From Diplonema papillatum (lineage: Eukaryota > Euglenozoa > Diplonemea > Diplonemida > Diplonemidae): a stretch of DNA of 64,000 bases. Under the pieces are notes generated by a model. It worked only from the letters and a program-made list of their open reading frames with translations. It had not been told where the DNA came from and did not search any database. Shown here piece after piece: positions 4,617-25,499 of this stretch. The stretch lies in NCBI GenBank assembly GCA_030068145.1, contig JAPJBO010000094.1, forward strand, positions 186,001 to 250,000, given 5' to 3'. How positions within the stretch are numbered: position 1 is the first letter of the stretch; each line of letters starts with the position of its first letter. The translations under genes and the position numbers were made by a program.

Positions 4617-4727
4617 CACAGGTCAAACTGGATTTCTGTCTTGATCTTCCCTTCGAAGAGACACAGGCTAAACCAGGTTTCTGTCTTGAGGCCCTTTCTT
4701 TCTTTCTTTCTTTTGCGACCCTTGCGC

Positions 4728-5553: not shown

Positions 5554-5562
5554 TGCCATTGT

Positions 5563-6155: not shown

Positions 6156-6164
6156 AGGGCAGCT

Positions 6165-6420: not shown

Positions 6421-6422
6421 AA

Positions 6423-6633
6423 CATGCAGGGTCAAAACCTTGTGTCTTTTTGAAAATGGCAAAAAAAAAAATTCGGAAAAAAAATGGGTTTTTTGAATTT
6501 TAAAAGTTTGGAACAAACTCTGCAGTAATTTTTGAGGAAGTTGAGCAAAATTTTTTTTTTCCAAAAAAATTTTTAGGGCTCCATCGGCCCCGCAGGAGCG
6601 TTTTAAAAAGACACAAGGTTTTGACCCTGCATG
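6423..6633. mobile_element. M1 short inverted-repeat element, complete copy 1
   Basis: 211 bp. The ends CATGCAGGGTCAAAACCTTG and their exact reverse complement form terminal inverted repeats of at least 29 bp. It is flanked by TTAA on both sides (6419-6422 and 6634-6637). No transposase is encoded, so it is a MITE-type non-autonomous DNA element. It sits between the 3' flank and the C-terminal part of Merlin relic A. Confidence 0.92.
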
Positions 6634-6731
6634 TTAAATAGGAAGGAAGGAGGGAAAAAATGACAGGAGAGTAGCAATTCAAAACAGGAAAAAATAGAAA
6701 GTAAGAGAGCTTTTGCTTGAAAAAAACAGAA

Positions 6732-7448
6732 CTACCAGAGGATGTCGTAACAAATAGGAAAGAGCGGGACACTTGGCTGTTCTGCTTCAGGGTCTTCATC
6801 AATGTCATCAATGTCATAAAGGTCATCAATATCATCAACACAATCGAGACATTGATGAGTTGCTGCTGCAACTGCAGGAACTTCTTCGACCTTTCTCCTC
6901 TTTGGCTCTTCCCCAGGGGAGCTTGATGGTGCACTGCTTGCAGCACAGATGGATCTGCTTGCATCAGCTTCCTGCAAGAGCTTTAAAGCCAACTGCAACG
7001 ACTCCACCTGCTGTTGCAATGCCACAACCCTGGGTTCCCCTTGGTTGAAGATCTCGCTGTACACCAACCGCAAAGCATCTCTACAGTTCAGCAACTTTTG
7101 TTGCAGTCCTTGCTCCCTTCATCTTGATCAATCTCTTGAGATGACCCCATGTGCCGTCTCCCTTCTGTGTGCCAGCAAGCCATTGCTGTTCACTGTAATT
7201 TTTTCTGAGGTGCACAAGCTCTGCTGAGCTGAGACCGTCAATTGCCCCACCATGGATTGAGGCAAGGATCCGCTCTTCACTCTCAACTGACAGCTCTTTA
7301 AACTCGGTGACTGTATCCACCAACTTCCACGCTGTCCGGAGCCCTGTGAACTCCTCGCGGCCGTGGTTGACCCATCCATATCGTACATTCCCTTTCTTTT
7401 CTTCACCCCAATAGAAGTTGGAAGAGGTGGGGTCAAGTCGGCTGCGGT
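6732..7448 (-). pseudogene. Merlin/IS1595-type transposase relic A, C-terminal part
   Basis: The minus-strand translation contains YGWVNHG, then GTQKGDGTWGHLK and KGARTATKV. These align with YAWVNHG, GTQAADGLWGRLK and KGARTGKKV of relic B (23732-25321). The frame is open from 7448 to about 7090, where a frameshift or stop (KVAEL-stop) separates it from the tail frame (6732-7094), which carries PKRRKVEEVP and an acidic Asp/Ile/Glu run. The other part of the gene is at 14143-14437. Element FB1 (7457-14134) separates the two, with ACGTTCCA duplicated at 7449-7456 and 14135-14142. Removing FB1 and one duplication copy brings the two parts into the same frame. The extreme N-terminus is missing, so the gene is dead. 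Confidence 0.8.
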
Positions 7449-7494
7449 ACGTTCCAGGCGGCGGTCCCGATACCGTCTCATGAGACCTTATCGA

Positions 7495-7825
7495 TACCTT
7501 TTTTGCCCATTTCTGGGTTGCGCCCTTATCTCGACCTTTTGGCCCGTTTTTGGGTTGCGCCCTTATCTCGACCTTTTGAGATGCGCCCTTATCTCTACCT
7601 TTTTGAGCTGCGCCCTTATCTCTACCTTTTTGGCCCGTTTTTGGCTTGTTCCCTTATCTCGACCTTTTTTGGGGGTTGTTCCCTTATCTCGACCTTTTTG
7701 AGGTTGCGCCCTTATCTCGACCTTTTTTGGGGGTTGCGCCCTTATCTCGACCTTTTGGGGTTGCGCCCTTATCTCGACCTTTTTTGGGGGTTGCGCCCTT
7801 ATCTCTACCTTTTTTGGGATTCTGA
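7495..7825 (-). repeat. FB1 left terminal array (about 21-25 bp units)
   Basis: About eleven copies of GCGCCCTTATCTCGACC with T- and G-rich spacers. Read on the minus strand, GGTCGAGATAAGGGCGCAAC is a diverged form of the GGTACCGATAAGGTCGCAAC unit at the other end of FB1. Confidence 0.9.
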
Positions 7826-7834
7826 CCAAATTTT

Positions 7835-8042
7835 CCCGAAATATTTTCAGGCCAAAAAAAAATCCGAAAATTTTCCAAAAATTTCGAAAAAATTTTGGGC
7901 CCAAAAAAAAAAAAATCCGAAAATTTCCGAAAATTTTTGGGCCAAAAAAAAAAATCCGAAAATTTCCGAAAATTTTTGGGCCAAAAAAAAAATCCGAAAA
8001 ATTTCCGAAAATTTTTGGGCCAAAAAAAAAAAAAAAACCCGA
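7835..8042 (+). repeat. FB1 A-rich array
   Basis: Five degenerate units of AAATCCGAAAATTT and TTTTGGGCC followed by poly-A. The equivalent array in FB2 is at 27760-28017. Confidence 0.85.
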
Positions 8043-9690
8043 AACCACCCAATCCAACTATGTACACATGAAACAGAGATCTTACGATTCAGCGAAAAAG
8101 CGAGCAAAAAAGAGTGTTTACAAACCCTGGAGGAAGTCGGAAAAAACAGTCGGCGAAAAACTTGGAAAAAAGACGGGAAAAAGACCTTCAAGTGCTCCAA
8201 GGCCAGACGATTGTAGTGTTGCAAACGAATCACAGACTTTGTACACACGAAACAGAGATCTTATGAATCAACGAAAAGCGAGCGAAAAAGAGCGTGGAAA
8301 AGTCGGAGACAGTCGGCGAAAAACTTGGAAAAAAGACGGGAAAATACGACCTTGAAGTGCTCCAAGATCAGACGACTGCATAGTGTTGCAAACGAATCGC
8401 AAACACGCTGAAGTTGGGACTCCTACACACTGAAATCAAGTGCTCCTAGGCAGACGAACTGTTAGTGTTGCGAACGAATCGCAAACACGCTGAGATCGGG
8501 ACCCCACACACTGAAATCGACTGAGAACAACCTGAGCGATCTCTCTTGATAAAAGATTCAAGCGCCGAAGGCGCAACCACCCAATCCAACTATGTACACA
8601 CGAAAACAGAGATCTTATGAATCAACGAAAAGCGAGCGAAAAAGAGCGTGTAAAACCCGGTAAAAGACGGAAAGACAGTCGGCGAAAAACTAGGAAAAAG
8701 ACGGGAAAATACGACCTTCAAGTGCTCCAAGGCCAGACGACCGCATAGTGTTGCAAACGAATCGCAAACACACTGAAGTTGGGACCCCCACACACTGAAA
8801 TCAAGTGCTCCTAGGCAGACGAACTGTTAGTGTTGCGAACGAATCGCAAACACGCTGAGATCGGGACCCCACACACTGAAATCGACTGAGAACAACCTGA
8901 GCGATCTCTCTTAATAAAAGATTCAAGCGCCGAAGGCGCAACCACCCAATCCAACTATGTACACACGAAACAGAGATCTTATGAATCAACGAAAAGCGAG
9001 CGAAAAAGAGCGTGTAAAACCCGGGAAAAGTCGGAAAGACAGTCGGCGAAAAACTAGGAAAAAGACGGGAAAATACGACCTTCAAGTGCTCCAAGGCCAG
9101 ACGACTGTATAGTGTTGCAAACGAATCGCAAACACGCTGAAGTTGGGACTCCCACACACTGAAATCAAGTGCTCCTAGGCAGACGAACTGTTAGTGTTGC
9201 GAACGAATCGCAAACACGCTGAGATCGGGACCCCACACACTGAAATCGACTGAGAAGAACCTGAGCGATCTCTCTTAATAAAGATTCAAGCGCCGAAGGC
9301 GCAAGCACCCAATCTGACTTTGTACACACGAAACAGAGATCTTATGAATCAACGAAAAGCGAGCGAAAAAGAGCGTGAAAACCCCGGGAAAAGTCGGAAA
9401 GACAGTCGGCGAAAAACTTGGAAAAAAGACGGGAAAATGCGACCTTCAAGTGCTCCAAGGCCAGACGACTGTATAGTGTTGCAAACGAATCGCAAACACG
9501 CTGAAGTTGGGACCCCCACACACTGAAATCAAGTGCTCCTAGGCAGACGAACTGTTAGTGTTGCGAACGAATCGCAAACACGCTGAGATCGGGACCCCAC
9601 ACACTGAAATCGACTGAGAAGAACCTGAGCGATCTCTCTTGATAAAAGATTCAAGCGCCGAAGGCGCAACCACCCAATCCGACCTCCACA
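8042..9690 (+). repeat. FB1 left arm: about 360-bp tandem units
   Basis: About five units start near 8060, 8241, 8594, 8958 and 9322, each with GTACACACGAAACAGAGATC. Each unit also has an internal half-unit duplication (GTGTTGCAAACGAATCGCAA and GTGTTGCGAACGAATCGCAA) and a GCGCC-GAA-GGCGC mini-hairpin. Short Lys/Arg- or Ser-rich frames that recur per unit are not supported as genes. Confidence 0.92.
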
Positions 9691-10290
9691 CTGAACAGCG
9701 ATCTCACAAGTGCTTTGCTGCTGGAGACCGAATGGATGTTGGGCAAGCACTGATGCGGTGCCCGAGTATCCGCAAGACGTATTGTTCAGCGGGAGTTGAG
9801 AGTCTCTGCCAAGGTGCTAGCCGCCGCCGTGGGCCAAGCGATCAAAAAGAACCAGCGACACAACCTGTTAACACTCGCAGGCGGTCGCACCCACCAGCCA
9901 GAACGCCCCCGGCTGCGCCATCATCGACGCAATCATCATCGTTTACGACAAGGCCGCGTCGTTGTAGGCGCACGGCACCAACAACGTAATGATTCTCTCT
10001 CTGATGACAGCCACACATATAGGTGGATGGGGAGACAAAGAAATACATAGTTACTTACTTTCCACACTTTTGTTCTTGTTGCGCAGCCAGCTACGATGAA
10101 GCAGGACAAACCGGATTTGTAGGCTACAAGTGCTGTTCCAATCCATTCGCTTGGAGGATGGTAAACCAACCCCAACTCCACCACACAGGAATGTTAACAG
10201 AGAAAACACCACATCGCAAACAGCGCTGGCGAAGGAGTCTTGTGGCAGATACAGGTACTATTTTGACTTCTTCCGGTTTTTCACGCTCTT
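9690..10290. other. FB1 core between the opposed arms
   Basis: Single-copy within FB1 but conserved in FB2 at about 30385-30985. A frame around GGRTHQPERPRLRHHRR and SDDSHTYRWMGRQ is recognisable in both copies. The copies differ by one A in a poly-A run near 9845, which shifts the upstream frame. It may be a relic of coding sequence; no family is recognised. Confidence 0.5.
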
Positions 10291-13010
10291 TTTCGCTCGC
10301 TTTTCGTTGATTCATAAGATCTCTGTTTCGTGTGTACAAAGTCGGTTTCGGTGGTTGCGCCTTCGGCGCTTGAATCTTTTATTAAGAGAGATCGCTCAGG
10401 TTGTTCCCAGTCGATTTCAGTGTGTGGGGTCTCAATTTCAGTGAGTTTGCGATTCGTTCGCAACACTAACAGTTCGTCTGCCTAGGAGCACTTGATTTCA
10501 GTGTGTGGGAGTCCCAACTTCAGCGTGTTTGCGATTCGTTTGCAACACTACAATCGTCTGGCCTTGGAGCACTTGAAGGTCGTACTTTCCCCCGACGGGG
10601 TTTCCGACTTGTTCCGGTTTTACAGGCTACTTTTTGCTCGCTTTTCGTTGATTCATAAAATCTCTGTTTCGTGTGTACAAAGTCGGATTGGGTGGTTGCG
10701 CCTTCGGCGCTTCAATGTTTTATTAAGAGAGATCGCTCAGGTTGCTCTCAGTCGATTTCAGTGTGTGGGGTCTCAGTTTCAGTGAGTTTGCGATTCGTTC
10801 GCAACACTATACAGTCGTCTGGCCTTGGAGCACTTGAAGGTCGTACTTTCCCCGACGGGGTTTCCGACTTGTTCCGGTTTTACAGGCTACTTTTTGCTCG
10901 CTTTTCGTTGATTCATAAGATCTCTGTTTCGATCCGACTTTGTACACAAAGTCGGATTGGGTGCTTGCGCCTTCGGCGCTAGAATCTTTTATTAAGAGAG
11001 ATCGCTCAGGTTGTTCTCAGTCGATTTCAGTGTGTGGGGTCCCAATATCAGTTAGTTTGCGATTCGTTTGCAACACTAACAATTCGTCTGCCTAGGAGCA
11101 CTTGATTTTAGTGTGTGGGGTGCCAACTTCAGCGTGTTTGTGATTCGTTTGCAACATTAAACTGTCGTCTGGCCTTGAAGCACTTGAAGGTCGTTTGAGT
11201 GTCGGGGCAGCACAACCCTGATTCGTGGGCTACAAGCGGTGTTCGCATCCACTCGCTTGGAGGATGAAACCCAGCCCCCCTACATCACCACACAGGAATG
11301 TTGGAAGCAGAGAAGCCGCACCAGAAGCGGTATGGGAGTCATTGCCGATCTGTGGAAGGTTCAGGTACTTTTTGAAGTGCACTTTTCGCTGATACAATAT
11401 GCAAGCACCATACCATGCAGGGTCAAAACCTTGTGTCTTTTTGGAAATGGCCAAAATTTTATTTCCGGAAAAAAAATGGGGTTTTTGAATTTTAAAAGTT
11501 TGGAACAAACTCTGCAGTAATATTTGAGGAAGTTGAGCAAAATTTTTTTTTTCCAAAAAAAATTTTAGGGCTCCATCGGCCCCGCGGGAGCGTTTTAAAA
11601 AGACACAAGGTTTTGACCCTGCATGATACAGGACATTGAAACAGCCTCGGAACCGTGCCGACACTGAGATTGGGACCCCACACACTGAAAGCGACTGGGA
11701 ACAACCTGAGCGATCTCTCTTAATAAAAGATTGAAGCGCCGAAGCCGCAACCACCCAATCCGACTTTGTACACGACAACAGGGAATCAGCGGGAAAGTGC
11801 ACAAAAAGATGCTAAGGCATACCACTGATCAGCCAACAAGAACTAAGGCGTTTGCGATTCGTTCGCAACACTAACAGTTCGTCTGCCTAGGAGCACTTGA
11901 TTTCAGTGTGTGGGAGTCCCAACTTCAGCGTGTTTGCGATTCGTTTGCAACTATACAGTCGTCTGGCCTTGGAGCACTTGAAGGTCGTACTTTCCCCCGA
12001 CGGGGTTTCCGACTTGTTCCGGTTTTACAGGCTACTTTTTGCTCACTTTTCGTTGATTCATAAGATCTCTGTTTCGTGTGTACAAAGTCGGATTGGGTGG
12101 TTGCGCCTTCGGCGCTTGAATCTTTTATTAAGAGAGATCACTCAGGTTGTTCTCAGTCGATTTCAGTGTGTGGGGTCCCAATCTCAGCGTGTTTGCGATT
12201 CGTTCGCAACACTAACAGTTCGTCTGCCTAGGAGCACTTGATTTCAGTGTGTGGGAGTCCCAACTTCAGCGTGTTTGCGATTCGTTTGCAACACTATACA
12301 GTCGTCTGGCCTTGGAGCACCTGCATCTCGTGCTTTCCCCCGATGGGGTTTCCGACTTGTTCCGGTTTTACAAGCTACTTTTTGCTCGCTTTTCGTTGAT
12401 TCATAAGATCTCTGTTTCGTGTGTACAAAGTTGGATTGGGTGGTTGCGCCTTCGGCGCTTAAATATTTTATTAAGAGAGATCGCTCAGGTTGTTCTCAGT
12501 CGATTTCAGTGTGTGGGGTCCCAATCTCAGCGTGTTTGCGATTCGTTCGCAACACTAACAGTTCGTCTGCCTAGGAGCACTTGATTTCAGTGTGTGGGAG
12601 TCCCAACTTCAGCGTGTTTGCGATTCGTTTGCAACACTATACAGTCGTCTGGCCTTGGAGCACCTGCATCTCGTGCTTTCCCCCGATGGGGTTTCCGACT
12701 TGTTCCGGTTTTACAAGCTACTTTTTGCTCGCTTTTCGTTGATTCATAAGATCTCTGTTTCGTGTGTACAAAGTTGGATTGGGTGGTTGCGCCTTCGGCG
12801 CTTAAATATTTTATTAAGAGAGATCGCTCAGGTTGTTCTCAGTCGATTTCAGTGTGTGGGGTCCCAATCTCAGCGTGTTTGCGATTCGTTCACAACACTA
12901 ACAGTTCGTCTGCCTAGGAGCACTTGATTTCAGTGTGTGGGAGTCCCAACTTCAGCGTGTTTGCGATTCGTTTGCAACACTAAACAGTCGTCTGGCCTTG
13001 AAGCCCTTGA
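10290..13010 (-). repeat. FB1 right arm: inverted 360-bp units
   Basis: About seven units in reverse orientation, with TTCGTGTGTACAAAG near 10327, 10668, 12072, 12417 and 12760 and variants near 10930 and 11765. The arm is interrupted by M1 copy 2. It also holds an internal duplication: the block at 11200-11680 resembles 13015-13250. Confidence 0.9.
11414..11625. mobile_element. M1 element, complete copy 2
   Basis: 212 bp with the same terminal inverted repeats, flanked by ATAC (11410-11413 and 11626-11629). The empty site ACCATACAGGACATTG is present in the duplicated blocks at 13195-13211 and at about 32717-32730, which directly proves insertion with a 4-bp duplication. Confidence 0.95.
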
Positions 13011-13640
13011 AGGTCGTTTGAGTGTCGGGGCAGCACAACCCTGATTCGTGGGCTACAAGCGGTCCCCTACATCACCACACAGGAAAGTTGGAAGCAGAGA
13101 AGCCACCCCCAGAAGCGGTATGGGAGTCATTGCCGATCTGTGGAAGGTACAGGTACTTTTTGAAGTGCACTTTTCGCTGATACAATATGCAAAAACCATA
13201 CAGGACATTGAAACGGCCTCGGAAACGTGCCGGCCTTAGTTCTTGTTGGCTAAACAGTGGTATGCTGTAGCATCTTTTCGTGCACTATCCCGCTGATTCG
13301 TTCGCAACACGAGCAGTTTAGGAGCACTTGATTGCAGTGTATACTTGAGCTCAGCGTGTTTGTGATCTGTTTGCAACACTTTAAAGTCGTCTGCCTCGGA
13401 TCACTTCATTTCAGACTACGACTAGAGTATTGCTGCAAGTGCTCAAGTGCAAACTGCTACTATTACGGCCGTGAAGCGCACACCGGACACAAAGCAAGAC
13501 GACCGCATGACACGACACGTGCAAAGAGTTCTAAGGTCGATAGCGGCTTTGTGCAGTATCATCACAAGCACCTGGTCTTTTTTTAGAGTTGTCGTTTTCA
13601 GAGTTCTTTTTTTCCGACGTTTTTTCTCGACATTTTTTCA
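13010..13640 (+). other. FB1 right spacer
   Basis: Non-repetitive stretch between the 360-bp units and the terminal array. It matches FB2 at about 32530-33120. I see no supported gene in it. Confidence 0.6.
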
Positions 13641-13677
13641 CCTTTCCCCCCCCAATTATTTTTCCGGAACTTTCTCC

Positions 13678-14110
13678 GAAAAAGGTACCGATAAGGTCGC
13701 AACCTCCAAAAGAGGTACCGATACCGTCGCACTCTCAAAAGGTACCGATAAGGTCGCACCTCGTCTTTTTTTCAGACTGCTTTTTTCTCGAAAAAAAATT
13801 TTCCGTTTTTTCTTCTTCAAAAAGGTACCGATAAGGTCGCAACCCCAAAAAGGTACCGATAAGGTCGCAACCTCCAAAAAAGGTACCGATAAGGTCGCAA
13901 CCTCCAAAAGAGGTACCGATAAGGTCGCAACCTCCAAAAGAGGTACCGATAACGTCGCAACCTCCAAAAGAGGTACCGATAAGGTCGCAACCCCAAAAAG
14001 GTACCGATAAGGTCGCACCTCAAAAAGGTACCGATAAGGTCGCAACCCCCAAAAGGTACCGATAAGGTCGCAACCCAGAAATGGGCAAAAGAGGTACCGA
14101 TAAGGTCTCA
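13678..14110 (+). repeat. FB1 right terminal array (21-bp GGTACCGATAAGG units)
   Basis: About thirteen copies of GGTACCGATAAGGTCGCAAC with short A-rich spacers, broken once by a T-rich segment (13760-13825). They run up to the FB1 end. Confidence 0.92.
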
Positions 14111-14142
14111 TGCGACGTTATCGGGACCGCCGCCACGTTCCA

Positions 14143-14437
14143 GCCCCATCTGTAGTAATGAAAACCGGCTTGTTGTCTGTTCCAAGCTGGATAACCTCTT
14201 CGGCAAGGACAGCGTCTAGCTCTACTATAGAGATAGGGGGAGGGGGCGGGACACACTTCTTGGTGCTTGTGTTCTTGCATTTCCCTCCACCTGACGGGAG
14301 ATCAACCTCTTCCCCAGGGTTCATAAGATTTTGCCAACGTTCAGGCAACTCACGGAGAACAAACAGGGATGACCCCCGCTCAACGATTCCCAGGAATCTC
14401 TGGTAGCAAACCTGCTGGTTTTCACCCTCACCTCGCT
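14143..14437 (-). pseudogene. Merlin/IS1595-type transposase relic A, middle part
   Basis: The minus-strand frame reads QRFLGIVERGSS, RELPERWQN, LPSGGGKC, PPPPPIS and FITTDGAGT. These align with FVGVVDRNTNGS, RELPEKWQH, LPSGCGQF, PPPPPIS and FISTDGAAAY of relic B. The D in TTDG is the probable second catalytic aspartate; FB1 is inserted two to three codons after it. On its upstream side the frame stops at about 14437, where a GGCAGGTCT element end begins, so the N-terminal third with the zinc ribbon and first aspartate is absent. The C-terminal part is at 6732-7448. Confidence 0.8.
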
Positions 14438-14580
14438 GGCAGGTCTCTACCCCGGCGAATCTCTACTCCGCCGGGGTAGAGATTGGTGAAGATCGGCGGA
14501 GTCAAGGTCGGCGGAGTCAAGGTCGGCGGAGTAAAGGTCCGGCGGAGTAAAGGTCGACAGAGTAAAGATCCACCCAAGGC
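14438..14580 (+). repeat. GGCAGGTCT end and GGCGGAGT array (Merlin B left side)
   Basis: It starts GGCAGGTCT, like the end at 5563. Then come the short inverted pair CTCTACTCCGCCGGGGTAGAG and four to five GGCGGAGTCAAGGTC units. A related array in inverted arrangement is at 25735-25850. I infer that these are the outer parts of the element carrying Merlin copy B. Confidence 0.55.
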
Positions 14581-14583
14581 AAA

Positions 14584-15005
14584 TTGATTTTTGACCCAAA
14601 AATTTGGGTTCAAAATTTTGGGTCAAAATTTTTGGGTCAAAAATTTTGGGTCAAAATTTTGGGTCAAAAACTTTGGGTCGAAAATTTTGGGTCAAAATTT
14701 TGGGTCAAAAATTTGGGTCCAAAATTTTGGGTCAAAAATTTTGGGGGTCAAAATTTTTGGGTTGAAATTTTGGGTCAAAAATTTGGGTCAAAAATTTTGG
14801 GTCAAAAAATTTGGGTCAAAATTTTGGGTCAAAAATTTTGGGTAAAAATTTGGGTCAAAAATTTTGGGTCAAAAATTTTGGGTCAATTTTTTTGGTTCAA
14901 AATTTGGAAAAATTTTGGGTCAAAATTTTGGGTCAAAAATTTTGGGTCAAAATTTTTGGGTCAAAATTTTTGGGTCAAAATTTTTGGGTTCAAAATTTGG
15001 TTTGG
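14584..15005 (+). repeat. GGGTCAAAATTTT minisatellite, second array
   Basis: About 30 degenerate TTTTGGGTCAAAA units, the same family as 5888-6155. Confidence 0.9.
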
Positions 15006-15109
15006 TTCGGTTGAAAAATACTGCCTGCGTTGGCCGTGACATACATCACGTTTCCAGGGGACACCACGAGGAGGTGCAGGTCAGGTTTTTCTCTCACTCT
15101 GAGAAGTTT

Positions 15110-15262
15110 TTTTCACTGGCAGTGGGCAAAAAACCAATTTTACCCACTGTGTTTTTTCACTAGTGAAAAAAAAAACCCAGTTTTTTTTTCACTAGTGAAA
15201 AAAAAACTTTTTTTCTTCACTAGTGAAAAAAAAATTTTTTTTTTCACTGGTGCCAATTTTTT
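15110..15262. repeat. TTTTTTCACTAGTGAAAAAA palindrome cluster
   Basis: Three near-perfect palindromes centred on CACTAGTG, plus two weaker copies with CACTGGTG or CACTGGCAGTG, separated by poly-A or poly-T. They should be strongly cruciform- or hairpin-prone. No coding potential. Confidence 0.85.
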
Positions 15263-15459
15263 TTTTCCCCCATTTTTTTGGCTGAAAGTGGTCAAGAACA
15301 GGTCAAAAGTGCAGTTGTATGCAGTTTTGGCTGCCCCGGCTAAATCATGCTGAACCATGCCCCCCCCACCCAAACACACTACCAAACCAGCACTATCTGG
15401 TGGTGTGGCAAACCTGGCACCTGCCAGTTCAAAAAACTTCCATTGTGAGAGAAAAAAAG

Positions 15460-15753
15460 TCTCTCACTGGTCAAATGTGGTCGGAAATTGGGGAAAAATC
15501 CCCACTGTGCGTTCGTTTCTTGTTTTTCGGGTTTCGGGGGCCTTTCCGAGGTCCCTCGGGGGTGGAAAAGGCCTCTCGGCAGGGAAAACGGTCGCCACTC
15601 GGGACCCCTTCGGGGCCCCTCGTGGCGACCGTTTTCCCTGCCTCGAGGCCTTTTCCACCCCCTCGGGACCTCTACAAGGCCCCCTCAACCCGAAAAACAA
15701 AAACTCACTACAGTGGGTTTTCCCCAATTTCTCCCACTTTGACCAGTGAGAGA
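15460..15753. repeat. 294-bp giant hairpin
   Basis: The left arm from TCTCTCACTGGTCAAA (15460) pairs with the right arm ending TTTGACCAGTGAGAGA (15753). The arms are about 140 bp with scattered mismatches and the turn is near 15604-15612 (CCCCTTCGGGG). It contains GGAAAACGGTCGCCAC and its inverse. It may be a foldback-type MITE or a precursor-like hairpin; a target duplication is not obvious. Confidence 0.85.
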
Positions 15754-15789
15754 ATGTATATGTCCCCCACCCACCCCACCCTCCCCCCA

Positions 15790-15970
15790 TAGCGCATAAT
15801 GGCACAGAATGAAGAGGAAAACGGAGAACAATGCATTGTGCAAACAATGTGCTGAACAGCACAGGAGAGCATGGCTCTCACAAACAGAGAAGGGAATGTA
15901 ATCACGAAGTGTGCTGAGCAGCACAGAGAGCAACTGAAGTGTAGCTCTCACAAAATGAGGTAAAAAAAAA
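15790..15970 (-). repeat. 3' minisatellite of Merlin copy B
   Basis: Three degenerate units with GTGCTGA(A/G)CAGCACA mini-hairpins and GGCTCTCACAAA. It lies directly downstream of the transposase stop. A parallel set of units follows relic C at 17066-17260. Confidence 0.65.
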
Positions 15971-15976
15971 ATGGAG

Positions 15977-16374
15977 CTACTCAGACGAGCTTCTTCTTCT
16001 GAGTGGAAGTCTTCTTCGCTTTGGAACATTAATCACAACTGGTGATTCTGGTGATCGCTTCCCAAAGGAAAGCTGGAGAGGCTGAGCAGCCTTGTATGCT
16101 CTTACTTCCTGACGGATCTGTGAAACTGCAACAGTGTCTGAGGCTGCAAGTGGGTGTACAATTGTTTCAACCTGGGAAAACAAAGCAGGACAACGATGCT
16201 CAGGGTCTGCAGAAGACTCTGAAAGTTCAAAGGAAGGCGATTCAGAGTGCCAAGCATCATATTGCTCAAGCCCATGGTGCGGTGCAGGTGATTCTGATGC
16301 AACAGGTGGAGCAGCAACAAGAGCAGGTTCAACAGCAAGTTCAACAAGGGGTGCAACAGGGGGGGCAGCAACAG
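15977..16374 (-). pseudogene. Merlin/IS1595-type transposase copy B, C-terminal tail
   Basis: This is the 3' end of the gene whose main part is at 23732-25321. It encodes a Pro/Val/Ala-rich linker (VAPLVELAVEPALVAAPPVA), an acidic Ser/Glu segment, and a basic end with PKRRRLPLRRR, a likely nuclear localisation signal. The stop is at 15977. FBv (16375-23731) lies between the two parts with AGCAACAG duplicated on each side. FBv plus one duplication copy is 7365 bp, a multiple of three, and the two frames are in register after removal. The pre-insertion gene was therefore intact across this point. Confidence 0.8.
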
Positions 16375-16380
16375 GGCGGG

Positions 16381-16878
16381 TCTACACCTTGTCCGAGCTA
16401 CACCTTGTCGGACAAGGTGTAGTTGGGGCTGCCGGACAAGGTGTAGTTGGGCCAATCCAAAATAGCCAGGGGCCAACTACACCTTGTCCGGGAGCCCTAA
16501 CTACACCTTGTCCGGCAGCCAACTACACCTTGTCCGGCAGCCAACTACACCTTGTCCGGCAGCCCTAACTACACCTTGTCCGGCACCCAACTACACCTTG
16601 TCCGGCACCCAACTACACCTTGTCCGGCACCCAACTACACCTTGTCCGGGAGCCCTAACTACACCTTGTCCGGCAGCCAACTACACCTTGTCCGGCAGCC
16701 AACTACACCTTGTCCGGCACCCAACTACACCTTGTCCGGCAGCCCTAACTACACCTTGTCCGGCACCCAACTACACCTTGTCCGGCACCCAACTACACCT
16801 TGTCCGGCACCTTGTCCGGCCAACTACACCTTGTCCGGCAGCCAACTACACCTTGCCCGGCACCCAACTATACATGGT
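16381..16878 (+). repeat. FBv left arm: 17-22 bp CTACACCTTGTCC array
   Basis: About 22 copies of CAACTACACCTTGTCCGGCA variants, mostly in one orientation after an initial inverted pair. Thr/Pro/Leu-rich frames through it are artefacts. Confidence 0.93.
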
Positions 16879-17059
16879 CACTCAACAGCTCAGTCCAATG
16901 GACTGTCCAGGCCTTGTGACCCTGGATGGCGTTTTCCCCATGCAACCCCCCATGCCCTCTCCCAACTCACTGCGCTGGTTACAGCTGCTAAAAAGGGGAT
17001 AAAACAAATGCGAAAACAAGTGAGTGCCTGAGCACCAGCAATCTCTGGAACAAAAGATG

Positions 17060-17265
17060 AAAATAGAGAGCAAAGAATGTGCCTAGCAGCACACCAGATC
17101 AATCTCTGGGACAAAACAAAACAGGGAGCAAGCGATAGCAGGGAGCAAAAGGGCGAACAGTAGACTGTGCCTAGCAGCACACCAGATCAGTCTCTGGGAC
17201 AAAGAACAAAAACAAGGAGCAATGGGCAAACAATATGCCTAGCAGCACACCAGATCAAATCGCCG
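17060..17265 (+). repeat. GCCTAGCAGCACACCAGATC minisatellite
   Basis: Four degenerate units with GCCTAGCAGCACACCAGATC and TCTCTGGGACAAA. It lies downstream of Merlin relic C on the minus strand, matching the position of the 15790-15970 units after copy B. Confidence 0.75.
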
Positions 17266-17328
17266 ATGAAAACAAGAAAACCAAAGAAAAGCCTGGGAAA
17301 AATATGAGTATACATGAATAAACGAGAT

Positions 17329-17505
17329 TCATTCTGATCTGCGAAGCGACAACCTTCTCCGTTTTGGCTGGCTCTCTTTCCTAGTGTCCGGCGAATCTGG
17401 CACTGCAAAATTGAGATTCAGACGTCTTTGAGGGGTTGGAGGACGCCCCTGGGGCACTTGTGGTTGAGCAAGAGTATCAGGATTGGAGTCAGAGTCAGAG
17501 AGCTC
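17329..17505 (-). pseudogene. Merlin-type transposase relic C, C-terminal tail only
   Basis: 58 codons ending at a stop at 17329. An acidic SDSDSNPD stretch, a Pro/Gln-rich linker and a basic PKRRRLSLRR end correspond to the tail of copy B (PKRRRLPLRRR) and relic D (GRRRLQLRR). Upstream of 17505 the frame runs directly into the FBv satellite, so everything else is lost. The catalytic domain is absent, and assignment rests on the tail motif and the similar downstream repeats. Confidence 0.55.
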
Positions 17506-17509
17506 GTTG

Positions 17510-19245
17510 GACCAATCCAAAATAGCCAGGGGCCAACTACACCTTGTCCGGCAGCCAACTACACTTTGTCTGACAAGGTGTAGTTGGCTACCGGACAAGG
17601 TGTAGTTGGGGCTGCCGGACAAGGTGTAGTTGGACCAATCCAAAATAGCCAGGGGCCAACTACACCTTGTCCGGCAGCCAACTACACTTTGTCTGACAAG
17701 GTGTAGTTGGCTGCCGGACAAGGTGTAGTTGGGGCTGCCGGACAAGGTGTAGTTGGACCAATCCAAAATAGCCAGGGGCCAACTACACCTTGTCCGGCAG
17801 CCAACTACACCTTGTCCGGCATCCAACTACACCTTGTCCGGCACCCAACTACACCTTGTCCGGGGAGCCCCAACTACACCTTGTCGGACAAGGTGTAGTT
17901 GGCTGCCGGACAAGGTGTAGTTGGACGCTCCCGGACAAGGTGTAGTTGGACCAATCCAAAATAGCCAGGGGCCAACTACACCTTGTCCGGGAGCCCAACT
18001 ACACCTTGTCCGGCACCCAACTACACCTTGTCCGGCACCCAACTACACCAATCCAAAATAGCCAGGGGCCAACTACCATGCAGGGTCAAAACCTTGTGTC
18101 TTTTTAAAACGCTCCCGCGGGGCCGATGGAGCCCTAAAAATTTTTCTGGAAAAAAAAAAATTGCTCAACTCCCTCAAAAATTACTGCAGAGTTTGTTCCA
18201 AACTTTTAAAATTCAAAAAACCCATTTTTTTTCCGGAAATTTTTTTTTGGCCATTTCCAAAAAGACACAAGGTTTTGACCCTGCATGCTACACCTTGTCC
18301 GGCAGCCAACTACACCTTGTCAGACAAAGTGTAGTTGGCTGCCGGACAAGGTGTAGTTGGGGCTGCCGGACAAGGTGTAGTTGGACCAATCCAAAATAGC
18401 CAGGGGCCAACTACACCTTGTCCGGCAGCCAACTACACCTTGTCTGACAAGGTGTAGTTGGCTGCCGGACAAGGTGTAGTTGGGGCTGCCGGACAAGGTG
18501 TAGTTGGACCAATCCAAAATAGCCAGGGGCCAACTACACCTTGTCCGGCAGCCAACTACACTTTGTCTGACAAGGTGTAGTTGGCTGCCGGACAAGGTGT
18601 AGTTGGGGCTGCCGGACAAGGTGTAGTTGGACCAATCCAAAATAGCCAGGGGCCAACTACACCTTGTCCGGCAGCCAACTACACTTTGTCAGACAAAGTG
18701 TAGTTGGCTGCCGGACAAGGTGTAGTTGGGGCTGCCGGACAAGGTGTAGTTGGACCAATCCAAAATAGCCAGGGGCCAACTACACCTTGTCCGGCAGCCA
18801 ACTACACTTTGTCTGACAAGGTGTAGTTGGCTGCCGGACAAGGTGTAGTTGGGGCTGCCGGACAAGGTGTAGTTGGACCAATCCAAAATAGCCAGGGGCC
18901 AACTACACCTTGTCCGGCAGCCAACTACACTTTGTCTGACAAGGTGTAGTTGGCTGCCGGACAAGGTGTAGTTGGGGCTGCCGGACAAGGTGTAGTTGGA
19001 CCAATCCAAAATAGCCAGGGGCCAACTACACCTTGTCCGGCAGCCAACTACACTTTGTCTGACAAGGTGTAGTTGGCTGCCGGACAAGGTGTAGTTGGGG
19101 CTGCCGGACAAGGTGTAGTTGGACCAATCCAAAATAGCCAGGGGCCAACTACACCTTGTCCGGGAGCCCTAACTACACCTTGTCCGGCAGCCAACTACAC
19201 CTTGTCCGGCACCCAACTACACCTTGTCCGGCAGCCCTAACTACA
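17510..19245. repeat. FBv internal array: 123-bp units with palindromes
   Basis: About a dozen units, with the marker CCAATCCAAAATAGCCAGGG near 17515, 17638, 17760, 17950, 18387, 18510, 18633, 18756, 18879, 19002 and 19125. Each has CTACACCTTGTC and GACAAGGTGTAG facing each other, making perfect palindromes. M1 copy 3 interrupts it. Confidence 0.93.
18077..18287. mobile_element. M1 element, complete copy 3
   Basis: 211 bp, inserted in the CAACTACACC repeat and flanked by CTAC on both sides (18073-18076, 18288-18291). The surrounding satellite supplies the empty site. Confidence 0.95.
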
Positions 19246-19716
19246 CTCGTAGTTTAACTGAGGGAATTCCGATATTGCAAGCATACCTTCACAGGTTCCC
19301 CCTCCCCGTTTACACACAACACGTCCCGTTCTTCTTGCCCATCCTCCAAAAATTGTGGCCACCGTATCGCTATCGATCGCGAAGGACAATTTGGCATCTG
19401 GGCGCAGTTTAACAGGGTCGTTGGAAGCGTTCAACCTGCATCTTGCCAAGATAAAGCAGGGGAAGGCATACATTTGCTGAGGCTCTGAAGACGACGTGCG
19501 TGAAGAGTCAGCACAGATCAACAAGTCGTCCTTCTATTCGTGTACTTAAGCCGCACCGACATCCCGACGTCTGCCGAGACGCTCTCGAACAAACTGCTCA
19601 CCGGCAAGGAAGTTATCGCTCAAAGGTGCATTGAGGTTTGAAGCGCACTAAAAGGAAAGACAAAAGTAACATCGGAAACACAAGAGTTTAGCACCGAGTT
19701 TGCTGGAATATTTTCT

Positions 19717-20724
19717 ATGTCGAGTCCGGAGCCCAACTTTGCTCCATATACCCTGAGTGAGATGCACACCGCACGAGCCAGGGCAGTTTCTCCCTCCGCA
19801 ACAGCTGGTCAAGGTTTACCAGCCCCGACACAAATGTCGGAACGTATGCTCCTGGATCAGGCAGAGGCGCTCGTCGGCAAGCTAGTGGTATACTCTTGTA
19901 AGAGGAAAGACGATGCCTCTGAGTGGACCAAGCATGCCGGAGTGTTAACAAAAGTGGGAGTGTCGGAGGGAGAGACCCCGTACCGTGTGCGATTAAGTGA
20001 AGCATTCAACTACTTGCACGGGATTTCATCATTTGATGGCCCAGAAAAAGAGTTTTTGCTACCAGACCCGAATTGGTTGTACAACAGATTAGTCGAGGCC
20101 TCTGTGCATCAGACTGAGGCGGCCCAACATGAAATGAATTTATTGCAGCAAACTATGGAAGCACGACTGGCAGGGATGGAAAGGAGATTACGATCGCAAC
20201 AGGAACAAGAACATGTGAGAAAGGTTGATTTCGATCAAGAATCAGAGGCCCAAATGAAAAGTGCCGATCATACGTGGTCTCATCCTGCTGCAGTAAAGAG
20301 TGTAGATGAGTGGAAAGAAATGTTTGAAACGCGTGGCCCAGATGGGTTGTTGTTTGCTTTGCAAGCACAATATGTAAGTGGGTTAACTGGGCTGCAAGGG
20401 GGGAAGGATTTGGAAGCTGCCTTTGATCAACTACGGCTTTGGGTAATTGGGTGTGCAATGACTTCAGGTTGGGAATCCACGGCTTTGCTGGAGTTGGGAA
20501 ACGTCCTGTTGCGCAATTTGCGCGTACATCATTATCATGTACGAGACCGTATCCCACGGGGAGCACTGCTGGACAAATTGAAGTTGTCCAACTCTTCGTC
20601 AGACGAAGTAGCGAAAGCGGCGATTGCGATTGGTAAGAAAGGAAAAGGAAAACGGCAATTCTTTTCAGCTTCTGCAAAAGGATACAAGGGACAGGGAAAC
20701 GCCAGGGCAGAGAGAAATCATTGA
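19717..20724 (+). CDS. gag-like ORF1 of the tyrosine-recombinase retrotransposon
   Basis: 335 codons from an ATG at 19717. No catalytic motif is recognised. The middle has a Gln/Glu/Arg-rich stretch likely to form a coiled coil (about residues 130-175, HQTEAAQHEMNLLQQTMEAR). The C-terminus is Lys/Gly-rich (KKGKGKRQ), as expected for nucleic-acid binding. Position, as first gene before recombinase and RT, and this composition suggest a structural Gag-like protein that coats the RNA intermediate. The stop at 20722-20724 lies 129 bp before the next ATG, which is in the same frame. Function is inferred from context, not from a recognised domain. Confidence 0.65.
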   Translation: MSSPEPNFAPYTLSEMHTARARAVSPSATAGQGLPAPTQMSERMLLDQAEALVGKLVVYSCKRKDDASEWTKHAGVLTKVGVSEGETPYRVRLSEAFNYLHGISSFDGPEKEFLLPDPNWLYNRLVEASVHQTEAAQHEMNLLQQTMEARLAGMERRLRSQQEQEHVRKVDFDQESEAQMKSADHTWSHPAAVKSVDEWKEMFETRGPDGLLFALQAQYVSGLTGLQGGKDLEAAFDQLRLWVIGCAMTSGWESTALLELGNVLLRNLRVHHYHVRDRIPRGALLDKLKLSNSSSDEVAKAAIAIGKKGKGKRQFFSASAKGYKGQGNARAERNH

Positions 20725-20853
20725 CTGGCGTTCTTTCTGCCTTCTCCCCCGCCAGTCACGTCGATATTCATACCTCAGTTTGGCAAACAGAAGATCTGCA
20801 CGGCCAAGAATCCGATTCGCTCACGAAAAGAACTTACAACACTCGGACACCAA

Positions 20854-21873
20854 ATGCGAAAAATGCAGCGCGACGCATTGCCGACAGAATTTGGAGACTC
20901 CAACCTACAGCCTCGAAAACAGACAATGAATACCTTTGCCAAGGCTGTGCTCAAAAATCTGGCAGCAGGAATAGGGAGAAAGAGAGCTCACACCAGAGAA
21001 GAAGGTGTTACTGCAAACGAAGCAGAAATTCTGCTCCAAGATCTGGTCTCAATTATGTGGGCTCGATCCACAACAGCCCAAAGACGCCACCTGTGGAACA
21101 GGTTGGTAAGATGGACTTCAGCCCAGGGATTACCTCTGAACGCCGACTCAGCAGCGCTATTCGTAATGGCAACCCGTGTCAGCCCTCAAGCACAGTTGGC
21201 TTATGCGAAAGGAATATCAGCAATGTTGGGGTATTTGGGGCTCGACAATCTCCCTATTTTGAATGTAGCAAGGGCTCTCCGAGCCGTTGGGGGAAACATT
21301 CCCATTCGACAGGCATTGCCGATGGACAAGAAGGTTCTCTTGAAGTGGGCGCAAGAGCAGGACCCAGCCCTCTGTTTGGCGGCTCTATTAGCATGGAAGT
21401 CGGCGAGCAGGTGGGGAGAAGTCGCAGCTCTGGGATCGTCCCAGTTTCTACTGGTCCAGGAAGAGGAGGTGATTGTGGACTGGGGCACAACCCCGAAAGG
21501 AAAACGGGCCAACCCTTTTTCTCCGTCACGCTGGACAGTGATAAAAGGCGACCTGACCAGAGTAATTGCGACACTTGTCCGAAGCTTAGGCAGTTTTCAA
21601 AGTCTGACCCAAGTAAGCACGGCCGAGCTAAACGCGCTTTGGAACAAGGATCCTCGAATGCGGCCGTTCTCCGGTCACAGTATCAAGCGAGGAGCTCTTT
21701 CACATCTTTTCCAACTGTTGTCTCAAGGTGTCCCTCTACAAGATTGGCTTATAGCGCGTTTAGCGAAACATCAAGGGGCATCGGGTCTTCCCGAAATGAC
21801 CATAAGATATGGAGGCGATCCAATTGCGTTAGCGCGTGCCCTGAAGACTGGGGAAGTGACGCGATATTTATGA
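20854..21873 (+). CDS. tyrosine recombinase of the retrotransposon
   Basis: 339 codons. The C-terminal catalytic domain shows the tyrosine-recombinase set: Arg186 in ASRWGEV, His275 and Arg279 in GHSIKRG, His306 in LAKHQ, and Tyr319 in TIRYG as the nucleophile. The N-terminal half (about residues 60-140) resembles a core-binding helical domain. In this element class the enzyme integrates a circular DNA copy, in place of a DDE integrase. The TGA stop overlaps the RT start as ATGA (21870-21873), which suggests coupled termination and reinitiation. The gene is intact. The start at 20854 is the first ATG after the ORF1 stop in this frame that keeps the full domain. Confidence 0.85.
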   Translation: MRKMQRDALPTEFGDSNLQPRKQTMNTFAKAVLKNLAAGIGRKRAHTREEGVTANEAEILLQDLVSIMWARSTTAQRRHLWNRLVRWTSAQGLPLNADSAALFVMATRVSPQAQLAYAKGISAMLGYLGLDNLPILNVARALRAVGGNIPIRQALPMDKKVLLKWAQEQDPALCLAALLAWKSASRWGEVAALGSSQFLLVQEEEVIVDWGTTPKGKRANPFSPSRWTVIKGDLTRVIATLVRSLGSFQSLTQVSTAELNALWNKDPRMRPFSGHSIKRGALSHLFQLLSQGVPLQDWLIARLAKHQGASGLPEMTIRYGGDPIALARALKTGEVTRYL

Positions 21874-23513
21874 GTTCACACAACAAGCATACTCTGACCC
21901 GGCGTGCCCATTGTTCCAGAATCCCGGCAACAGATGAAGAAAGAAACGCTCCACTGCACGCTACAAAGGTGCAACCTTTACAGGTTGAGAAGCTGAAGCT
22001 AAGAATGAGGAAATGCGTACGGGAACGTTTTGATCTCGTTTGGAATGCAACTTTTAATCCCCCGTCTTCTCAATCGTTACCAATGAGAGGTATCCGTTCT
22101 TCATTCAGTGCTGCTCATGCAGAACAATTGGTGAAGTGTGATATTGCTGCTCCTGCAACGGGACCAGGAACCTTGATGTCTGTACCTTTCACGGTGTTGG
22201 AAGAGAAGCCCTCGGGCTTGAGACAGAGGTTTATATTATGGACACGTGAAGCAAATGAAAACTTGAGGGCTTCATACAAAGCTCAGGTGCCGTTAGAACA
22301 TGTTTCTAAGTACATACATGTAGTATCGAACGAGTGTGCATCCCTGAGGGACTTACGGTGTGGATTCTATCAGGTAGAAATACCTGAGGGTTCGCGGAAG
22401 CATTTTCGATACACCGACGATAAAGGCAGATGGTTCGAACTAACCCGGTTGCCTATGGGACACAGTTGTGCTCCAGAACTTATGCACACCCTGACATCAA
22501 CCATTGGAGGGCACCCGGACTATGTCAAGGAGGAATACAGGGCCCAAGACGTGACTGTCCATACCTGGATAGACAATATTCGTCTAACGGGGAGCGAAAG
22601 GTCGGTAAAGGCAGAAACAGCCCGTCTGGACAAGACGGCGCAGGGAGCCGGTGTGACTTGGAAACCGGAGGACAGCGAGGATGCAGCCTCCGTGTATGAT
22701 TTTATCGGGGTAAGTTTTGACCACACAAAAGGTGAAGTTTCGCCTTCAAAAAGACTCTTGTCAAAGTTAGAGAGCGTGCAGTTTGATAAAGTAACTGCCG
22801 GAGAGTTGGAGTCTTTTGGAGGCCGACTCATGCACGCAAGCGCCGTATCAGGGGTACTACTTGGTCGGTTTTGGTTTGCGATTAAGTTCTTGCGGCGAGT
22901 CATTAACAGCCTCAACTCCGGGAAAAGAAGCGCTTCCTCTCTTGTAAGTATCCCTCCTTCCGTTCAAAAGGAGTTAAAACTTTGGCGTGCTGCTGTTGGA
23001 AAACCGCTCAAAGTACAAAATATCCTTCCATGCACCCCATTTGATGTTTTTGTTGATGCTTCACTGCGAGGATGGGGCATGGTTGCAATCGACAACACTA
23101 CTAAGGAAGTAATCGTCGCAGGCAATGCATGGACTGATGCTGAATCCTTGTTGCACATCAACATTCTAGAAGCGTTGGCGTTCCGCAACGCAATATTTGC
23201 TCTGCCTCCCGCTTTTCTGAGTAATAACGTTCATTTTAAAGTCGATAACACGACTGTAGCATCCGCAGCAAGGAAGGGTATGTGCATGGCCTCAAAACCC
23301 TTAAATGAGGCTATTGTAGCAGCTTTGTCAAGACTGCGTGAAGTGGGGGCCACCTTCACAATTGCTTGGGTGCGCTCTGCGTCGAATATTGCGGATTTAC
23401 CTTCCCGCATGTCGCCCCAGCTGCTTTCTTCCAGGAATGGAAAGAGGGTAGTTGAACAAGCGTTGCGGAAGTTTTTTACACGCGATGGGGTTCGTTCTCG
23501 TTCGGAAGGTTAG
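21870..23513 (+). CDS. reverse transcriptase-RNase H of the retrotransposon
   Basis: 547 codons from the ATG that overlaps the recombinase stop. RT motifs: DLRCGFYQVEIP (residues 161-172, first catalytic Asp), LPMGHSCAPEL (194-204), WIDNIRLTG (233-241) at the YxDD position, and DFIGVSFD. WIDN has Asn where the second Asp is usual. RNase H follows with VFVDASLRGWG (about residue 395), an ILEALAF Glu motif, FKVDNTT and WVRSASNIADLPSR. The protein should copy the element RNA and remove the template. The reading frame extends upstream across the recombinase gene to 20721 without a stop, but that part has no RT features, so I place the start at 21870. Confidence 0.85.
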   Translation: MSSHNKHTLTRRAHCSRIPATDEERNAPLHATKVQPLQVEKLKLRMRKCVRERFDLVWNATFNPPSSQSLPMRGIRSSFSAAHAEQLVKCDIAAPATGPGTLMSVPFTVLEEKPSGLRQRFILWTREANENLRASYKAQVPLEHVSKYIHVVSNECASLRDLRCGFYQVEIPEGSRKHFRYTDDKGRWFELTRLPMGHSCAPELMHTLTSTIGGHPDYVKEEYRAQDVTVHTWIDNIRLTGSERSVKAETARLDKTAQGAGVTWKPEDSEDAASVYDFIGVSFDHTKGEVSPSKRLLSKLESVQFDKVTAGELESFGGRLMHASAVSGVLLGRFWFAIKFLRRVINSLNSGKRSASSLVSIPPSVQKELKLWRAAVGKPLKVQNILPCTPFDVFVDASLRGWGMVAIDNTTKEVIVAGNAWTDAESLLHINILEALAFRNAIFALPPAFLSNNVHFKVDNTTVASAARKGMCMASKPLNEAIVAALSRLREVGATFTIAWVRSASNIADLPSRMSPQLLSSRNGKRVVEQALRKFFTRDGVRSRSEG

Positions 23514-23632
23514 GTTCATCCTGCCCGGCCGAGACGATTTCCCCTTCGCTTCTTTACTGCGCGTCCCCTTTCCGTTCACATGCATGCAAGATGGAATTCT
23601 CGTAGTTTAACTGAGGGAATTCCGATATTGCA

Positions 23633-23731
23633 CCCAACTACACCTTGTCCGGCACCCAACTACACCTTGTCCGGGAGCCCCAACTACACCTTGTCCGACA
23701 AGGTGTAGCTCGGACAAGGTGTAGACCCGCC
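23633..23731. repeat. FBv right arm
   Basis: Five CTACACCTTGTCC words ending in the palindromic CTTGTCCGACAAG and the terminal GACCCGCC. It is much shorter than the left arm. Confidence 0.9.
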
Positions 23732-25321
23732 AGCAACAGGTGCAACAGGTACAGGAACGACAAGAGCAGGTTCAATAGCAAGTTCAACAAGGGGTGCAAC
23801 AGGTGCAGGTGGTACATCAAGAGCAGGTGCCACAAGTGGAGCCTCAACAACAGGTGCAGCAGGTGCAACAAGAGGACCAGAGCCATCTGAAGTTTCAGGC
23901 ATCTGGTTGTATTGCAGCTTCATCACTTCTCCAACTGATATCATAGAGACATGAAATATATCCTGGCTAGTATTGCGAGTTCTCCAGTGTTCAAGTAGTG
24001 TTTGTTCCACCTTTTTGCCTGTTCGTGCACCTTTACTTTTCATAGCAAGCTTCAATCTCCCCCACAATCCATCAGCAGCCTGAGTTCCTGCAGTCCAGCC
24101 CTTCAAATGGTAGTGATCAATCAATGCTGTAGCTCCATCAATGTTTCCTGCCTGCACAGCAGCAACAATGTCTGTTTCAAGAACAAGACCCATGTCCATC
24201 CCAAAAGCTGCAGCAGACGATGTTTCTACTCTTCTCACCCAGGATGCAACATATTGGGTGAATTGCTGAGCTCCGTGATTCACCCAGGCATAGCGAACAC
24301 ACTCACGCCCATTTGGGACATCACGCCAGAAAAATGTTGGCTTGATCGGGTTGAAGCGCGATTTGTATGCAGCAGCCCCGTCTGTTGAAATGAAGAGGGG
24401 CTCTTCGGGGGTACCAAGCTGAATGAGACCTGTTTCATTCAACAAGGCATCAAGTTCCTCGTTGCTGATGGGAGGTGGGGGGGGTACAACAACGTGGGTC
24501 TTGGCATTTGTGAATTGACCACAGCCAGATGGGAGCTCAACAGTCTCCCCTGGTCGCACAGCGTGCTGCCATTTTTCAGGAAGCTCACGGATGATGCTCC
24601 CATTTGTGTTGCGGTCAACAACACCAACAAATCGAACATAGCAAAACTCTTGAGTTATGCCAGCACCTCTCTTCTTCAAACCAACTGAGAATTCATCGAT
24701 CTCGATGCAGTGGTTTGGTCCTCCGAGAGGGAGGTCTCTTAGTTCAAAGAACTTCAAGCCTTTCAGTGTGACTTGGCTGACAAACTTGTTGTATCTGGCA
24801 TGGGAAGTAGATGACAGTGGACTATTTGCATCTTGAGCACGGTGACAGATGCCAAAACTAAACCCCATCACTTTGTTCATGAACTGAATGGGGCTGATGC
24901 CTGTGTGGCCATCCAGAGCTGTGCCACCTGTCTCACGTCTCATTGCTTCACAGAAGACTGTGCTGCCGTCAGTTGAACGTTTGCATGTTTTAGATGTGCA
25001 AGCCCAGCAAGGCCACCCATTTGCGCCACATATCCACTCACTTGTAATAGTCCCACACCCACACTTCACTGTCTCTGGGAGCAGACCGTATCCTTGCATC
25101 ACACTCACAACGCCATCCAATCCAAGCAGAGCAACTTGCAGGAGTGACAACTCTGGCTTTGCTCTTCTCTTCAAGTGAGCAGATCCACAGTAGTGAAGTT
25201 TTTCTCTCTCCTCCTTCTGTACACCTTCCATCCAACGACCCTTCCCTCTTTGAACATGTTGCTGGATGTTGCCTGCCATAATGTATATTCTTCCTTTTTC
25301 CTGTTGAGTTTGAGAGTTCAT
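23732..25321 (-). pseudogene. Merlin/IS1595-type transposase copy B, main part
   Basis: Begins with ATG at 25321 and is open to the FBv insertion. A Cys-rich ribbon at residues 87-113 (CGC, C98, CWAC, C113) fits the zinc finger of IS1595-type enzymes. The catalytic domain has IEIDEFSVGLKK (Asp209), FISTDGAAAYK (Asp314) and YAWVNHG (His349), then GTQAADGLWGRLK, where the third acidic residue would be Asp417. Merlin transposases cut and paste DNA and usually make 8-9 bp duplications. A Pro/Val/Ala-rich linker leads to the tail at 15977-16374. Without FBv the frame would be continuous, so this is the least damaged copy. The closest family call is DDE ISXO2-like/Merlin; exact placement needs a profile search. 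Confidence 0.82.
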
Positions 25322-25499
25322 GAACGCACATCTTGTCTTTCACTGGTGGTCTTGCACTGGTGATTGTCAGGCCTGTGGTACTCAAAACCTGAAGGGAAAG
25401 GATGAACATTGTAGAGGGAACAAAAAAAGTTGAAATGAATGGAAAGGATTGAACTGTAGAACAGGAAATGAAAAGAATGAACTGAACAAGTGACTGACT

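Follow-up and report, generated by a model that had tools for sequence, protein, structure and literature searches.

The stretch of DNA analyzed here, referred to as the window, comprises 64,000 bp of a 271-Mb, 2910-contig assembly of Diplonema papillatum (C94:186001-250000), and our subject is the mobile elements in it whose long inverted arms consist of tandem repeats. Two of these elements, FB1 and FBv, had been singled out in an earlier reading of the sequence (the original prediction) as members of a candidate undescribed group with GGCGG ends and 8-bp duplications, possibly mobilized by one machinery. These two labels, like SAG, AGTC, M1, S24, S49 and S38 below, are working names of families. 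The window contains a stack of insertions (Table 1), in which the outermost element between 5563 and 26544 is an S49 element; FB1 was inserted into the interior of an S49-type transposase gene and FBv into that of the M1 transposase gene. S38 lies immediately left of S49, with its left tip upstream of the window and its left arm interrupted by the insert at 1-4152. We looked for the right tip of the window copy of M1 and for the left tip of FB2 and found neither; of the two tips, FB2, a copy of FB1, retains the right one only.

Table 1. Elements and genes mapped in the window (positions in bp).
Feature	Position	Strand	Remarks
FB1	7457..14134	+	Non-autonomous element; tips GGCGGCGGTCCCGATA
FB1 duplications	7449-7456 and 14135-14142		ACGTTCCA, 8 bp, exact
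FB1 left arm	7457..7818	+	Repeats of ~26-38 bp, type CCCTTATCTCGACC
FB1 right arm	13818..14134	-	Repeats of ~30 bp, type GGTACCGATAAGGTCGCAAC
FBv	16375..23731	+	Non-autonomous element; tips GGCGGGTCTACACCTTGTCC
FBv duplications	16367-16374 and 23732-23739		AGCAACAG, 8 bp, exact
FBv left arm	16375..16870	+	22-bp repeat CCAACTACACCTTGTCCGGCAC
Transposase remnant in FBv, last 60 codons	17332..17511	-	98% to residues 797-856 of the L053 gene product
S49 element	5563..26544		Tips GGCAGGTCTTTAGTCACAG; encloses FB1, M1 and FBv
S49 arms	5563-5891 and 25849-26544		49-bp repeat
S49 transposase gene, 3' part	6735..7455	-	95-100% to L054 gene; cut by FB1
S49 transposase gene, middle part	14130..14438	-	98%; ends at M1 start
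M1 element	14438..25848	-	Left tip GGCAGGTCTCTACCCCGG at 14438; right limit approximate
M1 transposase gene, 5' part	23729..25321	-	Residues 1-531; cut by FBv
M1 transposase gene, 3' part	16019..16375	-	Residues 528-646; 99%
S38 element, right part	4153..5557	-	38-bp repeat arms; right tip GGCAGCTCTTCGGTTAGAG at 5557
FB2 (FB1 copy)	27723..33589	+	Right tip at 33589; left limit approximate
1-4152 insert	1..4152		Starts CATGCAGGGTC; CATGCAGGG ends; 31-bp inverted arrays; 4-bp duplication GTAG
CATGCAGGG miniature inverted-repeat transposable element (MITE) in FBv arm	18077..18287		4-bp duplication CTAC
Retroelement in FBv	19247..23631	+	32-bp direct repeats at 19247-19278 and 23600-23631

The ends of FB1 and FBv were confirmed. 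A scan of the window for GGCGG/CCGCC pairs with 8-bp flanks yielded two exact cases, namely these two elements with their inverted tandem-repeat arms, and their terminal inverted repeats matched at 19 of 20 (FB1) and 20 of 20 bases (FBv). Three further pairs carried one mismatch each in the duplication, with 5, 10 and 10 of the 20 terminal bases matching. In 56 sequences (350,769 bases), 10 GGC..GCC pairs were flanked by identical 8-bp stretches and agreed at 13 or more of their 20 terminal bases; five shuffled versions contained none. Additionally, all 64 starting triplets were compared in a stricter scan, where the AT-rich AAA (77) and AAT (16) exceeded GGC (10) and no other triplet did; the excess of these two most likely reflects low-complexity sequence.

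Across the genome we recognized at least eight satellite-armed families (FB1, FBv, SAG, AGTC, M1, S24, S49 and S38). The tips used for all eight read GGCRG with a T at position 9, although 26 of the 61 S24 tips were found by hand count to read GGCTG instead. The positions common to all families are the initial G, G and C, the G at position 5 and the T at position 9, and the remainder of the tip differs. Exact tips are by no means confined to the window copies, with 264 counted for FB1, 86 for FBv, 79 for S49, 114 for S38, 61 for S24 and 156 for SAG, and the reversed tip pattern gave zero for each family counted.

Facing tip pairs were then picked from the listed places (the first 100 for FB1, S38 and SAG), with part of the listed pairs being taken and 61 bases read at most of the tips; in two S24 pairs, an already known locus supplied one of the tips. 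Exact duplications flanked 26 of these 40 pairs, 24 of them of 8 bp and two of 9 bp (FB1, 5 of 10; FBv, 5 of 6; S49, 4 of 4; S38, 5 of 9 plus one pair with a single mismatch; SAG, 5 of 6; S24, 2 of 5, both 9 bp). An S24 copy at locus L040 has an 8-bp duplication, and two of three picked M1 pairs were exact. When the flanks of 19 exact pairs were joined, six matched an uninterrupted site in the sequences examined (97-100% over 30-32 bases). In the window itself, the flanks of the S49 copy (GCCATTGT / TTGATTGT) agree at 5 of 8 positions. The pair at 4155-5553, taken in the original prediction for a further member with another satellite, is the right part of an element of the related GGCAG family S38, its tip being GGCAGCTC and not GGCGG. 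The duplication ATTGTGGC expected for this window copy failed, as the left flank reads ACCCTTAT and does not match, whereas S38 pairs elsewhere do have exact duplications, as counted above.

A copy combining these tips with a transposase gene, as the original prediction had suggested looking for, was found on C25: an 8,232-bp element with FB1 tips, a perfect duplication (CTCGGCGA) and a transposase gene inside. Residues 1-764 of the protein DIPPA_20292 (P0003, 771 residues) match this element at 2709-2951, 3146-4600 and 4593-5213 with 98.6-100% identity; since the frame changes near 4.6 kb, we do not claim the gene to be intact. FB1 and FB2 of the window and the copy at L046 match parts of the C25 element at 1-2600 and 5807-8232, and none of them matches 2601-5806, which includes the whole coding stretch. 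The FB1 copies thus show the typical relation of deleted copies to a full-length relative, the C25 element. The transposase remnant in FBv is the tail of the gene type present in L053, and C111 carries an FBv tip, a gene with an FBv-type tail and, on the far side, an FBv arm ending in an 11-bp array, one tip being lost.

Altogether, 14 gene-bearing copies with exact duplications were found in seven families: C25 (FB1); L018 and L040 (M1); C2388 (S24, 9 bp); C35, C2399 and C678 (S49); C134 and C941 (S38); C113 (AGTC); and C177, C900, C128 and C1090 (SAG). In C35, C2399, C678, C134, C900, C128 and C1090 the gene was placed between the tips by coordinates, and the interior of C941 was read partly. 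The transposase matches of L018 and C2388 contain one in-frame TGA each, and that of C678 is partial. The eighth family, FBv, is represented by C111. C211, considered as a second gene-bearing FB1 copy, was rejected, as its tips bracket a gene but no duplication is present. In L053 (2985-7599), we also observed an FBv-type gene together with a short FBv array between SAG tips that have an exact duplication, which looks like a gain of new tips on the outside of older arms. We conclude that the families share tips, duplications and gene-bearing copies, and that FB1 and FBv derive from gene-bearing relatives. Gene-bearing copies thereby tie the formation of satellite-like DNA to transposition.

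The arms are tandem arrays, and within one element the two arms match each other as inverted copies. For one arm per family (both for FB1), we took the most recurrent 14-mer from tip nucleotides 6-29 and counted matches of at least 11 of 14 bases on either strand. The motif was found 12 times in the FB1 right arm, 19 times in that of FBv, 6 in S49, 11 in S38, 10 each in S24, AGTC and SAG, and twice in M1. Hence, in seven of eight families an arm holds six or more copies of the tip motif of that family, compared to just two in M1, and in seven of eight the repeated motif lies within about 30 bp of the tip. Shuffled arms gave means of at most 0.25, and the arms of other families gave 0 except for a single 1; the latter contrast is the stronger test, because the offset was optimized on the real arm and then kept for the shuffles. 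With own-arm counts high and other arms near zero, an arm is a private iteration of the motif near the tip in these seven families.

Arms of this kind could also be common genomic satellites, either captured or expanded once the element was in place, with the transposase reading nothing but the short tip. The FB1 left arm contains no tip-motif match, so that its outermost tip is not simply repeated there, M1 moves with merely a short array, and unrelated arrays of a 31-bp unit occur in the different, CATGCAGGG-ended family. Against this stand the family-specific arm counts, with one stray match across the arms of other families, the inverted match between the two arms of an element, and the recurrence of the same tips, 25-45 bases deep, in independent insertions with differing duplications. 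We therefore regard this explanation as unlikely. Genome-wide, 1053 occurrences of a 19-base segment of the FBv unit were counted, compared to 86 FBv tips. Inverted arrays of an 11-bp repeat, GGGTCATATAG, surround the gene of a transposase subfamily with 39% identity (L047, 3672-3941 and 8223-8512), and this repeat is found at L115 (1400-1918) and L055 as well. No GGC tip could be placed at L047, nor were tips found in the stretch examined of L048, whose transposase core, as taken for the tree, is the same as that of L051.

The transposases linked to the eight families can all be aligned as one group and contain invariant motifs. Representatives of the subfamilies reach 33-56% identity to the M1 protein, and most families possess a tip and an arm repeat of their own; for these reasons we speak of one transposase group rather than one enzyme, and the single machinery suggested originally holds in this wider sense, with GGCRG tips and 8-bp duplications shared genome-wide. 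An independent convergence of tips in transposons of separate origin, with GGC and 8-bp duplications shared by chance, would fit the small number of tip positions common to all families, but the link of every family to the same alignable group makes it very improbable.

hAT elements make 8-bp duplications, and hAT had been named as a possible machinery. FB2 indeed adjoins a hAT transposase open reading frame (ORF) at 33590-35065, with a hAT C-terminal domain by Pfam. This piece merely flanks FB2, lying outside its tip, and the gene-bearing copies carry the other transposase group. A tblastn comparison of the hAT protein with 11 elements returned no hAT gene, with one chance-level row (E 0.21; one query family, without a genome-wide hAT search), and the two 9-bp duplications speak against hAT too. 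We consider mobilization by hAT hardly credible. The explanation that we consider highly probable is a group of at least eight families in this genome, with GGCRG tips, 8-bp (rarely 9-bp) duplications, inverted tandem-repeat arms and one divergent transposase group, whose transposition would disperse the arrays.

How tips and arms came to be connected may be pictured as follows. The short tip would be a cleavage signal common to all families, and the repeated arm motif a predicted binding site of the transposase, by analogy with the Galileo repeats discussed below. The array could grow by slippage, by unequal exchange or during the repair of gaps left by excision, with binding sites multiplied as a result, and a larger array might be favored or tolerated because binding sites are added. 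Transposition would then disperse the satellite-like arrays. If tip and arm motif diverge together with their cognate transposase, this would explain why tips are shared and arms are not.

Three S49 elements (C35:2448-4232, C2399 and C2567) encode an N-terminal segment that shares 91-95% identity with residues 1-92 of M1, followed by a core only about 40% identical, which suggests that N-terminal domains were exchanged between subfamilies. A relative of the transposase core, P0004, was detected in a further ENA assembly, and the group may extend beyond Diplonema. FB1 and FBv were repeatedly located inside transposase genes of other subfamilies (in the window and at L046, C1570 and L054); as most loci came from transposase searches and are biased accordingly, we do not take this as evidence of targeting.

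The insert at 1-4152, originally counted as a further member, does not belong to the GGCRG group, which is ruled out by its ends and its 4-bp duplication. Among 45 copies of its short relatives that differ in their flanks, 41 have 4-bp duplications, for the most part NTAN, although some of the copies are duplicates of one locus. The corresponding MITE family, CATGCAGGGTC..GACCCTGCATG, is about 210 bp long, with window copies at 6423-6633, 18077-18287 and 27488-27699 and others elsewhere. In the retroelement inside FBv, reverse transcriptase and RNase H-like sequence were recognized by eye, while Pfam gave no match at the thresholds used; the order of its ORFs presumably resembles that of YR-type retroelements. 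Further to the right, a 32-bp unit is repeated 54 times at 58491-60218, overlapped by long minus-strand open frames, and a kinesin motor ORF (PF00225) lies at 55832-57064. The Diplonema genome paper describes a 72-kb intron in a kinesin-motor gene and long introns often holding transposable elements (PMC10161547); the window might lie inside that gene. By word search, Merlin, satellite and inverted are absent from the main text of this paper, and the one paper in which Diplonema, Merlin and transposon were found together as words (PMC12278014) names Diplonema in its reference list only.

Judged by its motifs, the transposase of the group looks to be DDE-type. The nine core sequences have two invariant D residues, and the third acidic residue is an invariant D, not E, within ADG/GDG. 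The motif order DEFS, TDGA..Y, VNHG..FT, TQxADGxW appears Merlin/ISXO2-like, which would favor filing the group there. So would the weak, below-cut-off matches of two of 15 members to the IS1595 zinc ribbon (Zn_Tnp_IS1595) at the N-terminus (E 0.05 and 0.08). The named relatives of the window transposase are three Diplonema papillatum proteins only. Profile searches gave no support for it: PF12762 (DDE_Tnp_IS1595) had no match in the genome at E<=10 (the control matched in 1 of 14 genomes) and was absent from the Pfam matches of the 15 members, which were unrelated (best E 0.00044, in one of 15). Searches of NCBIfam gave four weak matches, all to non-transposase families, those of PDB sequences one unrelated row (E 0.73) and those of PHROGs weak matches only; tblastn in plasmids and scans of viral and genome contigs led nowhere.

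The comparison with Merlin/IS1595 was made by profile searches and the published description. According to Kalb Lopes et al. 2021 (PMC8101967), Merlin elements have 5'-GG tips, 8- or 9-bp duplications, a single transposase gene and several divergent families per genome, with tandem repeats inside some of them (in Symbiodinium). The terminal GGC of all eight tips and the exact duplications of the 26 pairs agree with this description. What differs is the silent DDE_Tnp_IS1595 profile, the D as third catalytic-type residue, the inverted arms built from the tip motif in seven of eight families and the possible N-terminal zinc ribbon, which Merlin is said to lack. Because PF12762 finds nothing in the genome, we have not filed the group as Merlin; that it represents a deeply divergent Merlin/IS1595 branch and not something new is nevertheless rather probable, and compatible with the proposed dispersal of arrays by one transposase group. 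More tentatively, it could be a new eukaryotic DDE transposon superfamily or a first deep lineage next to Merlin, with arms that would consist of amplified transposase-binding sites.

The present analysis brings a large set of DNA transposons to light in a diplonemid genome, where most of the chain is visible across families: gene-bearing copy, deleted copy, tip, arm unit and insertion site. The idea that satellites arise from transposase-binding sites thereby becomes directly testable by binding assays. If it is true, a fast turnover of tip motif and transposase would leave every family with a satellite of its own, and the coevolution of transposase and arm would regularly supply a genome with new satellite-like families.

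With their long inverted arms of tandem repeats, the elements have the structure of foldback elements, and two of these offer the closest comparison. Galileo, of the P superfamily, has foldback-like long terminal inverted repeats with tandem repeats, which were identified as further binding sites for the THAP domain of the transposase (Marzo et al. 2013, PMC3688188). The transposase group found here is a different one, and binding to its arms is predicted by this analogy. The Tetris foldback element of Drosophila virilis has long inverted tandem-repeat arms, 8-10-bp duplications, repeats sharing a stretch with the outer domain and a link to satellite arrays, and sets a precedent for satellites arising from foldback arms (PMC4079207). 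No transposase-encoding copy of Tetris is reported to have been found, and Mutator was suggested from the duplication length (PMC4079207), whereas in Diplonema gene-bearing copies with the same tips are present in several families.

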